DNA of 36,759 bases from contig JAFYNZ010000020.1 in the NCBI GenBank assembly GCA_017547845.1, forward strand, positions 1 to 36,759, given 5' to 3'. The notes beneath the pieces were generated by a model. The model was given only the letters and a program-made list of their open reading frames with translations. It had not been told where the DNA came from and made no database searches. Each line of letters opens with the position of its first letter. The first letter of the stretch is position 1. Of the stretch, positions 27,189-30,750 are shown piece after piece. Position numbers and translations under genes: made by a program. Source of the DNA: Muribaculaceae bacterium. Lineage in GTDB: Bacteria > Bacteroidota > Bacteroidia > Bacteroidales > Muribaculaceae.

Positions 27189-28211
27189 CTAAAATGCTTC
27201 GTCGTCGTAAAGAGCTGCTGCTTTACGAATCATGTCGCGCATGTAGCACATCGCACTGCGTGGATAGAGCACTCGCACTCCCGGACCGAAGCTCATCAAC
27301 ATGGAGTACATCTCAAAGTTGATTATGACGTCTATTTCAAGCAGATAGCTACCGTCGTCGTTGCGTGCCACCACTCGTTGCGATGGATGCACAGGCTTGG
27401 TCAGGATATATTTGCTCTGCTCTGCCGATGCCCAGAAGCCCACTCGCTTAGGCTTTGCACGGAGGTTTTTGCTCACTCCTATAACATCGTCGAAGAAATG
27501 CTCGGAGTCAAACTCAGGGTTGTCACGATAAGGCTCATCGATAGGCTCTACCGACACTATTCGGTCTAAAGCGAGGTTGTATAGCACCATATCCGAAGCA
27601 CGACTACCGAAAACAAACCATCGATTGCGAAACTCTTTGAGCAGGTAGGGATAGAGTATGTATTCGTGTGGCTGACGAGCCGAAAACGACTGATACATCA
27701 CTCTAAGTGTCTGGCGTTGAGCAATGTAGTTATAGAGTGGATTGAGCAGTCGCAAGCCTTTGAGGTCGGGCACGCTATCGAAGTGAATGACAGGTTTGCG
27801 ATTGTTTCGGGAGATGGAGAGCTTATCCTGCACCCTATTGACCACGTCGCTGATCTCGGCAAATCGGTCGAAGTCTTGGAGCTGGCGGAGCATGTCGACA
27901 GCCTCTTGCATCACTTCGTAGTCATTCTGCGACAGAGGCATGTTGGTGATACTATAGTCTGAATCGGCATAGCGATAGTACTTGTGGTCGTAAACCTCAA
28001 TCGGGGCATTGTAGCCCAACTTGTCGGAGCGCATCATCTGGATATCCGACTGCACAGTGCGTACGCTGACGCCTTTAGTAATCCCCTCGCAATCGTAGAG
28101 GGCATCGCAACAAGCATCGACAAGATCGTCGAGCGTCCATCGGCGATAGGGGTTGCGCAGACAGTTGTCTATCGTCTTGTAGCGTATCAGAGCATTCTTA
28201 TTTGCCGGCAT
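27189..28211 (-). CDS. WYL-domain transcriptional regulator, divergent from rtcB
   Basis: 340 residues. N-terminal winged helix (about 6-75; RYKTIDNCLRNPYRRWTLDD...VSVRTVQSDIQMM) and a WYL domain at about 155-245 (TLRVMYQSFSARQPHEYIL, PYLLKEFRNRWFVFGSR, where the name-giving Trp-Tyr-Leu reads Trp-Phe-Val), then a C-terminal WCX-like region with the wing LLMSFGPGVRVLYP. WYL proteins are ligand-responsive regulators, often of RNA/DNA damage and defence genes. It is transcribed away from rtcB across a 256-base gap that carries two matching dyads, one at each promoter, so regulation of itself and of rtcB is likely. This would replace RtcR, which controls rtcB in Proteobacteria. Confidence 0.92.
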   Translation of the reverse strand: MPANKNALIRYKTIDNCLRNPYRRWTLDDLVDACCDALYDCEGITKGVSVRTVQSDIQMMRSDKLGYNAPIEVYDHKYYRYADSDYSITNMPLSQNDYEVMQEAVDMLRQLQDFDRFAEISDVVNRVQDKLSISRNNRKPVIHFDSVPDLKGLRLLNPLYNYIAQRQTLRVMYQSFSARQPHEYILYPYLLKEFRNRWFVFGSRASDMVLYNLALDRIVSVEPIDEPYRDNPEFDSEHFFDDVIGVSKNLRAKPKRVGFWASAEQSKYILTKPVHPSQRVVARNDDGSYLLEIDVIINFEMYSMLMSFGPGVRVLYPRSAMCYMRDMIRKAAALYDDEAF

Positions 28212-28260: not shown

Positions 28261-28297
28261 CAAAGTTAATGATTTTCTACGCAATCTATTTGCGCAG
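28261..28297 (-). promoter_or_regulatory. WYL gene promoter with 21-bp dyad operator 1
   Basis: The dyad CTACGCA-N7-TGCGCAG (28277-28297) lies 8 bp upstream (minus strand) of the -7 box TAACTTTG (28261-28268). On the minus strand the site reads CTGCGCA-N7-TGCGTAG. It covers the place of the -33 element; no TTTG is there, which suggests activator dependence or repression by occlusion. Confidence 0.7.
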
Positions 28298-28345
28298 AGG
28301 GATATTTTTTGCTAAAATGAGGGATTTTTTGTTGATTTTTTTGTT

Positions 28346-28382
28346 CTACGCAGAAAGATTGCGCAGTGGCATAGTAACTTCG
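28346..28382 (+). promoter_or_regulatory. rtcB promoter with 21-bp dyad operator 2
   Basis: CTACGCA-N7-TGCGCAG (28346-28366), then exactly 8 bp, then the -7 box TAACTTCG (28375-28382). In the direction of transcription it agrees with operator 1 at 17 of 21 positions, and the same 8-bp spacing is kept. The -33 position is inside the dyad. Confidence 0.7.
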
Positions 28383-28467: not shown

Positions 28468-29640
28468 ATGTATGTAACAACATTCAACAAGCGCCCTGTA
28501 AAGATATGGGCGGAAAATGTCGAAGAGTCGGCTATGCGCCAGATAGAAAATCTGACCACTTTGCCGTTTCTCTTCCATCACTTGGCAATCATGCCCGATG
28601 TTCACACCGGCATGGGTATGCCTATCGGAGGTGTACTGGCTTGTGTAGACGCTGTGATACCTAACGCTGTAGGGGTCGACATCGGCTGTGGAATGTGTGC
28701 CGTGAAGACCAATCGTAAGGTGACCGAGCTCACTGACGACATCTTGCGTAAGAAGATTATGGGAGGCATACGCGGTCGCATTCCTCTGGGTAAGAACCAC
28801 CACAAGCAGCCACAAGACCGCTGCTACCTACCCGAAGGCCACGACATCGACAAGCTCCACATCGTCGCTCAACGCATCGACTCGATAGCTCACGAAGTCG
28901 GCACGTTGGGAGGTGGCAACCACTTTATCGAACTCCAACGAGATGAGGACGACAACCTCTGGATTATGATTCACTCCGGCTCTCGCAATCTGGGTAAGCG
29001 CGTAGGCGATCACTACAATAAGATAGCAGAATCGCTCAACCGAATGTATCACTCCGTGGTTGACCCAAGCATACGCATGGCGTTTTTGCCAAAGCACTCC
29101 AAGGAGTTTCACAACTACTGGGCAGAGATGCTCTACTGCGTCGACTTCGCTCTCTGCAATCGTCGCTTGATGATGCAACGCATCCAAGAGGTGATAGCCG
29201 ATGCCCTACCCGGCACCGAGTTCGAACCGATGATCAACATTGCCCACAACTATGCCGTCTGGGAAGAGCACTACGGCGAGAATGTCGTCGTTCACCGCAA
29301 GGGGGCTACGCTTGCCGACAAGGGGGTAATCGGTATCATACCCGGCTCTCAAGGCACAGCTTCCTACATCGTCGAAGGCCTTGGCAATCCTGAGTCATTC
29401 CGTTCATGCTCTCACGGAGCCGGTCGTGTACTCTCTCGCACTGCCGCTATCAAGACTCTCAACCTCAAGGAAGAGATAGCAGCTCTCAATGCCAAGGGTA
29501 TTGTCCACGCTATCCGCACTCAGTCAGACATGGAAGAGGCTTCGGGTGCCTACAAGGATATCGACATGGTGATGACACAACAATCCGACCTCGTCGAAAT
29601 CAAGACTCGCCTACTGCCTATAGCCGTCATCAAGGGGTAA
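28468..29640 (+). CDS. rtcB: RNA-splicing ligase RtcB
   Basis: 390 residues. GTP- and Mn-dependent ligase joining 2',3'-cyclic phosphate and 5'-OH RNA ends, as in RNA repair. Active-site residues are visible: Asp71 and Cys74 in GVDIGCGMCAVK, GGGNHFIEL (148-156), HRKGAT (276-281) and the guanylylated His316 in SHGAGR. A little shorter than the E. coli enzyme (408). No rtcA cyclase or archease gene is next to it. Control is probably by the divergent WYL protein. A structured RNA may follow immediately downstream. The stop is followed by AAAAAATTTTTT, which is not a convincing terminator. Confidence 0.97.
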   Translation: MYVTTFNKRPVKIWAENVEESAMRQIENLTTLPFLFHHLAIMPDVHTGMGMPIGGVLACVDAVIPNAVGVDIGCGMCAVKTNRKVTELTDDILRKKIMGGIRGRIPLGKNHHKQPQDRCYLPEGHDIDKLHIVAQRIDSIAHEVGTLGGGNHFIELQRDEDDNLWIMIHSGSRNLGKRVGDHYNKIAESLNRMYHSVVDPSIRMAFLPKHSKEFHNYWAEMLYCVDFALCNRRLMMQRIQEVIADALPGTEFEPMINIAHNYAVWEEHYGENVVVHRKGATLADKGVIGIIPGSQGTASYIVEGLGNPESFRSCSHGAGRVLSRTAAIKTLNLKEEIAALNAKGIVHAIRTQSDMEEASGAYKDIDMVMTQQSDLVEIKTRLLPIAVIKG

Positions 29641-29991: not shown

Positions 29992-30750
29992 ATGCTAAAA
30001 TTCATATCATGGAACGTCAACGGTCTTCGCGCCGTAGCCGGCAAAGGCTTTGCCGACATTTTTCGCGACCTTGACGCCGATTTCTTCTGTCTCCAAGAGA
30101 CCAAACTCCAAGAAGGACAACTCGACATCGCTTTCGACGGCTACACCTCCTACTGGAACTACGCCGAAAAGAAAGGCTACTCGGGCACTGCGATTTTCAC
30201 TCGCCACACTCCCCTTTCGGTCAGCTATGGCATCGGCATCGCCGACCACGACCTTGAAGGACGCGTCATCACTCTCGAAATGCAAGATTTCTACCTCGTC
30301 ACTGTCTACACTCCCAACTCACAAGATGGCCTCAAACGTCTGGACTATCGCATGAACTGGGAAGACGACTTCCGTGACTACCTCCTACGCCTCGACCAAG
30401 CGAAACCGGTGATCATCTGTGGCGACCTCAACGTGGCACACCAAGAGATAGACCTTCGCAACCCTAAGACCAATCGCAAGAATCCCGGATTCACCGACCA
30501 AGAACGCGAGAAATTCACCGCTCTGCTCGACTCGGGATTTATCGACACATTCCGTCACCTTCACCCCGATACCACCGATGCATACTCATGGTGGAGCTAT
30601 CGCTTTCAGGCACGCGCCAAGAATGCCGGTTGGCGTATCGACTACTTTGTCACCTCACAACGCCTTGCCCAAAGCATCAACGATGCCTCTATCCTGAGCG
30701 ATGTCATGGGTAGCGACCACTGCCCTGTGCAGCTCATCATCGAAGGGTAA
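29992..30750 (+). CDS. xth: Exodeoxyribonuclease III (AP endonuclease)
   Basis: 252 residues, normal for ExoIII/ExoA. It cuts DNA at abasic sites and removes 3' blocks in base-excision repair. Motifs: [11 protein letters not shown] (4-14), LQETKLQ with the metal Glu (about 35-41), the Tyr in [18 protein letters not shown] with Asp and Asn, and the C-terminal GSDHCPVQL with Asp-His. The start ATG follows the probable RNA terminator by about 120 bases. No partner gene is evident; its place beside rtcB could be chance. Confidence 0.97.

Follow-up and report, generated by a model that had tools for sequence, protein, structure and literature searches.

The window, by which we mean the whole 36,759-nt stretch analysed, comes from a Muribaculaceae bacterium and carries two divergent genes. 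One encodes a WYL regulator of 340 aa (27189..28211, minus strand) and the other the RNA ligase RtcB of 390 aa (28468..29640, plus strand), the only RtcB found in the genome, which is 89.8% complete. The regulator has an N-terminal part with an R-T-x-Q-x-D-I-Q motif, followed by a WYL domain (Pfam, 6.8e-10) and a WCX domain (8.1e-10), and WYL followed by WCX was present in all 18 members of alignment A1. The conserved motif is presumed to be an HTH; no Pfam HTH family matched the N-terminal part, and residues 1-140 gave no meaningful PDB match. The best PDB match of the WYL family profile was DriD, with entries 8tp8 and 9pfq among the best five, and the best matches spanned the C-terminal third only. 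The regulator matched no AAA+ or CARF family, and homology to RtcR was rejected for this reason.

Two inverted repeats (dyads) lie between the genes. The dyad facing rtcB, CTACGCA-GAAAGAT-TGCGCAG (28346..28366, plus strand), ends 8 bp before the -7 box of rtcB, TAACTTCG (28375..28382, plus strand). The dyad facing the WYL gene, CTGCGCA-AATAGAT-TGCGTAG as read on the minus strand, is located at 28277..28297, and the -7 box of the WYL gene, TAACTTTG (28268-28261, minus strand), likewise starts 8 bp 3' of it. The former is proposed to be an activator site, the same geometry being found in relatives, and the latter a site of positive autoregulation. The coordinates of both dyads and the 8-bp distances in the first-pass annotation were exact, and its count of 17 identical positions out of 21, with each dyad read towards its gene, was reproduced. 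Its term mirror-image suits the N7 and the boxes and does not suit the dyads themselves, which both have the same plus-strand form (CTACGCA..TGCGCAG). With the box set at -12 to -5, as given for the sigma-A box of Flavobacterium psychrophilum (PMC9723704), each dyad covers -41 to -21. By eye, neither promoter has a TTTG at the -33 place, as had also been claimed; as a main argument the missing -33 was dropped as weak. The rtcB box ends in TTCG and differs from TAnnTTTG by this one letter.

The motif CGCA-N7-TGCG occurs in the window only twice, in these two dyads. A perfect match to the long pattern (12 fixed and 2 half-fixed letters) is expected by arithmetic about 0.0005 times per 36.8 kb. 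Looser patterns were not commoner than in shuffles, with 4 matches against 4.8 for the long pattern at up to 3 mismatches and 9 against 17.9 for the short pattern at up to 1 mismatch, so only the two perfect dyads are meaningful. On the perfect pair alone, a chance origin of the window dyads was rejected. An exonuclease/endonuclease/phosphatase family gene (29992-30750), located 3' of rtcB on the same strand, has no dyad of its own.

The genome of the window contains four perfect dyads, each 8 bp from a box: the window pair and one each on contigs C54 and C48. The C54 dyad precedes the only RlaP gene found in this genome, and the C48 dyad precedes a gene for a 488-aa protein without known family (L076 184-1650, G000:C48). 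With up to one mismatch, 18 sites were found compared with 16 for the pattern read backwards, so in this genome only the four perfect sites were used. A TROVE gene was not found there. The 488-aa gene adjoins a gene for the type I restriction methyltransferase HsdM on the other strand.

The WYL protein was searched in 150 related genomes, with matches in 120, and 30 loci were fetched. In the 23 closest loci (L001-L023), rtcB was located by tblastn within 20 and at least one CGCA-N7-TGCG within 19; the seven more distant loci (L024-L030) had neither. A -7-like box starts 8 bp from the dyads before rtcB in L001-L023; it carries TTTG, or TTCG in two cases, and its first two letters vary. An alignment scan of a public genome collection gave at least 585 relatives, the best 80 being retained. 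These best 80 come from Prevotella, Bacteroides, Dysgonomonas, Flavobacterium, Chitinophagales, Rufibacter, Spirosoma, one Balneola and others, and dyads recur among them. The first-pass annotation had suggested aligning the intergenic regions of WYL-rtcB pairs and had named conserved promoters with lost dyads as the outcome against it. The alignment shows the dyad at a fixed distance from the box in Bacteroidales and other Bacteroidota; promoters kept with the dyads lost are not the general picture, and some WYL loci have no dyad.

Spacing was counted in 116 protein-fetched WYL loci (L001-L023, L096-L175 and 13 of 20 further protein-search stretches), in which 144 dyads had at least 3 of 4 flank letters matching after duplicates and near-end dyads were dropped. 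On one side or both, a TTTG was found at offset 12 or 13 in 121 of the 144, whereas about 3 would be expected from the TTTG frequency at offsets 22-39. The distance from dyad to box was 8 bp in 84 and 9 bp in 37 of the 121. The remaining 23 include the window's rtcB dyad, whose TTCG box does not pass this strict test. None of 6 weak-flank dyads in the same loci had a fitting TTTG.

Such a site could also serve a WYL repressor, which would block polymerase from the -33 and be released by a ligand, as in the BrxR/CapW-type WYL regulators of defence systems. The dyad covers the -33, a place that suits repression as well. No constant distance is required of a repressor's site, whereas the 121 dyads keep 8-9 bp to the box before several gene families. 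In only 4 of the 121 target promoters does the arm nearest the box, in the -33 place that the dyad occupies, read TTTG, and the box often does not begin with TA, which fits promoters that need help. The best PDB matches, moreover, are to DriD, an activator. We regard repression as unlikely. Fixed spacing alone is not proof of activation; the near-invariant 8 or 9 bp together with the DriD match strengthens the activator reading. The spacing in relatives and this structural match both support the earlier proposal that a WYL regulator would control both window promoters, probably as an activator.

Locus layout varies among relatives. A strong dyad lies within 400 bp upstream of the WYL gene in 67 of 115 distinct WYL loci, and 48 have none there. 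In the commonest layout among these 67 (25 of the 115), one shared dyad faces away from the WYL gene at 8-9 bp and a WYL-facing TTTG box is 13-16 bp off. The shared dyad would then overlap the WYL gene's own -33, which suggests autorepression in those loci; repression is the natural reading there. In the window autorepression was ruled out, the shared-dyad layout being inapplicable with a WYL-facing dyad 8 bp from its own box. Boxes at 7-9 bp on both sides were found in 14 of the 115 loci, 8 of them with two dyads as in the window. A WYL-facing box alone was found in 4, the window being counted here owing to its TTCG. The dyad faces away only in 12, and another 12 have no box by the strict test. 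The paired dyads of the window, with an apparently self-activated WYL gene, are one layout among several.

Two regularities of layout were considered and set aside. The first was a TTTG arm as proof of a -33 for the WYL gene. Such an arm is present in 42 of 44 target dyads where TTTG stands at 18/19 in the opposite orientation but also in 58 of 77 where it does not, and is suggestive only. Helical phasing of paired dyads, which are 57, 67-71 or 79 bp apart in 15 loci, 88-89 bp in three and 113 bp in one, offered too few independent cases.

No strong dyad was found within 1.5 kb upstream in 26 of 102 WYL loci. In L008, L015, L018 and L021-L023 the dyad is on the other side of the WYL gene, before a tandem rtcB, and in L097-L099, L105 and L161 it is further off than 1.5 kb. 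L005, L019 and L160 have one-mismatch variants and L136 a two-mismatch variant. No trusted dyad was seen in L009, L103, L120, L127, L129-L131, L151, L162 and L168, of which L103, L131 and L162 are cut short upstream. In the WYL-rtcB intergenic region of L003 the half-sites are changed symmetrically, to TTACGCC-N7-GGCGTAA, 8 bp from TAATTTCG, and its WYL helix reads DIE where most relatives have DIQ. This single case is possibly a natural change of specificity. In L016 and L020 different rtcB genes flank the WYL gene on its two sides, and a separate dyad promoter precedes each of them.

To name the targets, 143 dyad promoters in protein- or pattern-fetched loci were collected, with the box at 8 bp in 98, 9 bp in 36 and 7 bp in 9. 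The first gene encodes RtcB in 47, WYL in 20, TROVE in 14, RlaP in 11, a 746-aa family in 11, Band7 in 4, a polynucleotide-kinase-like (PNK-like) protein in 2, Thg1 in 1 and other proteins in 17; 16 promoters had no callable gene. Families were named by Pfam and NCBIfam searches on representatives. RlaP matched the RNA repair pathway polymerase-beta family, and the others matched TROVE with a Ro60 vWA domain, Thg1, Band_7, AAA_33 with PNK similarity and, in one case, PolyA_pol with HD. The 746-aa family resembles RING_SCO0854, with a score far below the cut-off of that model. Proteins of this RING_SCO0854-like family (725-754 aa; L150 133-2370, L192 1729-3906 and others) are a frequent target with a tRNA-like leader, and the family is a candidate RNA-repair protein. 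A gene with an RF-1 (release-factor-like) domain, L238 5935-6645, lies near a dyad promoter and Band7 and RtcB genes. Short ORFs 3' of rtcB in L012 and L016 cluster with it and may be fragments of similar genes.

In 20 named genomes, chosen for carrying the WYL regulator gene, the strict dyad and box pattern gave 35 sites in 18 genomes compared with 2 for the backwards control. A regulon family was found within 1.7 kb downstream of 31 of the 35 sites (RtcB 12, 746-aa family 10, Band7 4, WYL 2, TROVE 2, RlaP 1); as the families were defined from dyad targets themselves, this fraction is a check of consistency, not of what the families do.

Inverted repeats could form hairpins, and the dyads might accordingly be RNA elements, or chance palindromes kept by descent. 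The dyads, however, are upstream of the expected start sites and recur before unrelated gene families in many genera. Apart from the core, which the selection used fixes, N7 and spacer vary in sequence at a constant distance to the box. This explanation is hardly credible.

The leaders downstream of the dyad promoters fell into short and long ones. Leaders of up to 180 nt precede RtcB in 52 of 57 cases, a label that may include mislabelled genes such as those with the RF-1 domain, and RlaP in 11 of 12. Leaders longer than 180 nt, reaching 1075 nt, precede the 746-aa gene in 14 of 15 cases, Band7 in 11 of 11 and TROVE in 7 of 19. A tRNA T-arm was found in 30 of 32 long leaders, compared with a mean of 5.4 and a maximum of 11 of 32 in 200 mononucleotide shuffles. 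These 32 do not form an independent sample, since four enter twice via tandem promoters, and L111 is doubtful. Only one of the 52 short RtcB leaders had a T-arm. The Rfam tRNA gathering score was reached in or beside the leaders of L190, L228, L233, L234, L235, L238 and L242, at places where ARAGORN called no tRNA; the L242 match sits behind rtcB. It was also reached in L079, L144 and L150, and inside the examined leaders tRNA was the only Rfam match.

Two types of tRNA-like module were recognised in the stretch from the dyad promoter to the 746-aa, Band7 or TROVE gene. The first is circularly permuted, in the order T-arm, acceptor, short loop, acceptor, D-arm. Of 23 such modules 16 were aligned, and 13 of the 16 predicted pairs had double-sided changes, including all 7 acceptor pairs, the acceptor not having been used in the selection. 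The second is unpermuted with a long insert in the anticodon arm. It was found 14 times and aligned for 7, with double changes in 10 of 27 pairs; here the acceptor was part of the selection. Modules are seen in L228 2565-2686, L233 7608-7724, L098, L144, L230 and other leaders, several per leader. In the window none was seen, and the rtcB leader there is short. Bacterial Y RNA is described as a circularly permuted tRNA mimic (PMC11472068), and YrlA has a tRNA-like domain (PMC7790460). As with the YrlA-type Y RNAs, TROVE genes adjoin the permuted module, here in some of the loci. Unlike them, it also occurs in Band7 leaders, a second, unpermuted type precedes the 746-aa gene, and a leader often holds several modules.

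The site and the regulator were compared across 393 genomes of the order, in which the WYL profile separates 22 genomes, scoring at least 430 bits, from others with at most 337. A close WYL ortholog was present in 11 of 15 genomes with a strong site, classified by hand, and in 11 of the 378 others (Fisher p 1e-12). Of the 22 ortholog genomes, 11 had no strong site by the pattern used, and 8 of these nonetheless carry a dyad 8 or 9 bp from a box, in a form that escapes this pattern. The outer base of the site is C in 178 of 252 arms with DIQ-type (non-DLA) helices compared with 2 of 34 with DLA. It thus appears to follow the putative recognition helix of the WYL protein, essentially within one clade and with few independent events. 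Dyads with different flanks (TCCGCA..TGCGGA, AACGCA..TGCGTT) accompany WYL paralogs, likewise 8 bp from the box and again in few independent events. These paralogs (L176, L177 (G394:C32), L178, L179 and L180) have nearby genes that match type I methyltransferase or resemble IetA. The dyad with its fixed spacing is perhaps a general promoter class for WYL activators in the phylum.

As binding of the WYL protein to the dyads is something that we infer, another regulator could bind them and merely happen to be encoded near these genes. In four of the 15 strong-site genomes no close ortholog was found, and three of the four (G157, G416 and G430) are 94-100% complete, which counts against a strict link between site and regulator; the fourth, G107, is 70% complete. 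The G416 site has a poor left arm, precedes an unrelated gene and may be chance. Against another regulator stand the dyads close upstream of the WYL gene in those 67 of 115 loci, the co-occurrence of site and ortholog across genomes, the outer base that follows the WYL helix type, and the paralogs with dyads of their own at unchanged spacing. Another regulator is very improbable.

Like DriD of Caulobacter, the regulator has a WYL-WCX match and would use a palindromic site over the -35/-33 at the same distance from the -10/-7. The DriD site is a 20-bp pseudo-palindrome that overlaps the -35 at a constant distance from the -10 in the promoters compared, promoters with poor -35 matches; sigma-4 sits between its two DNA-binding domains (PMC12340889). 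DriD answers DNA damage through ssDNA and is described as driving didA, bapE, recJ and dnaG and not its own gene (PMC12340889), whereas here the targets are in RNA repair and the WYL gene itself often has the site. The mycobacterial activator PafBC, a case of sigma adaptation, inserts between promoter and sigma-4 (PMC11804915). It is likewise a WYL-WCX activator placed where sigma would contact the -35, and its ligand is a nucleic acid (PMC11804915); unlike the present regulator, PafBC is a heterodimer with a -26 motif and a DNA-damage regulon. BrxR and CapW are also WYL regulators adjoining the genes that they control, in their case defence systems, and BrxR was a weaker profile match.

For the RtcR of Salmonella, it has been established how RtcB, Ro60 and Y RNAs are switched on (PMC7790460). 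RtcR, the activator of rsr-yrlBA-rtcBA, belongs to the sigma-54 AAA+ proteins, has a divergent CARF domain (PMC4012209) and binds tRNA halves that carry a cyclic phosphate (PMC7790460). Like RtcR, the WYL regulator would bring RtcB, Ro60/Rsr and a Y RNA under one activator, as judged here from site, spacing and linkage; it has WYL and WCX instead of the sigma-54 AAA+ and CARF domains, and no sequence relation to RtcR was seen. The first-pass annotation had called it a counterpart of RtcR, which holds for an analog with the same kind of gene set and not for a homolog.

From sequence comparison and database searches, we consider it quite probable that a DriD-like WYL activator controls an RNA-repair regulon in the window and in relatives across Bacteroidota; its binding to the dyads, the activation and the signal are what we infer. 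In this model a WYL dimer would bind TRCGCA-N7-TGCGYA 8-9 bp upstream of the -7 box, and the bound site, at about -41 to -21, would cover the -33, so that the protein would hold RNA polymerase in place of the -33 contact. Polymerase contact of the DriD/PafBC type would account for the fixed spacing between dyad and box. The regulator would turn on rtcB and its own gene in the window, and RlaP and the 488-aa gene elsewhere in the genome. Positive autoregulation would thus accompany rtcB activation in the window, whereas at shared-dyad loci the target would be activated and WYL repressed. In relatives the targets would be RtcB, RlaP, TROVE/Ro60, Thg1, the polynucleotide-kinase-like protein, Band7 and the 746-aa RING_SCO0854-like protein, the leader often holding tRNA mimics that resemble Y RNA. 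Judging from these targets and from RtcR, whose ligand is tRNA halves carrying a cyclic phosphate, the probable signal for the WYL domain is a nucleic acid that arises when RNA is damaged.

A broader proposal, which is possible and which we put forward only tentatively, is a Bacteroidota-wide RNA-damage response. The Sm-like WYL fold of the protein would sense broken RNA, either tRNA halves or their 2',3'-cyclic phosphate ends, and the protein would activate RNA-repair enzymes, Ro60 and permuted tRNA-mimic arrays from one promoter class of fixed geometry. The mimics may be decoys for the anticodon nuclease or may regulate the sensor by feedback.

RtcB, Ro60 and Y RNAs have long been puzzling in bacteria, and Ro60 is discussed in lupus work. 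In a limited literature search, no report of a WYL-linked RNA-repair regulon in Bacteroidota was found. The finding is larger than the first-pass annotation stated and is likely an RNA-repair regulon of Bacteroidota with tRNA-mimic RNAs. If this is true, Bacteroidota have a regulator unrelated to RtcR with the same kind of gene set, and its easily recognised promoter would allow the regulon to be read from the genome. Uncharacterised genes (the 746-aa RING_SCO0854-like family and the 488-aa gene) and structured RNAs would be tied to RNA repair, and there would be a handle on Ro60 expression in gut Bacteroidales.
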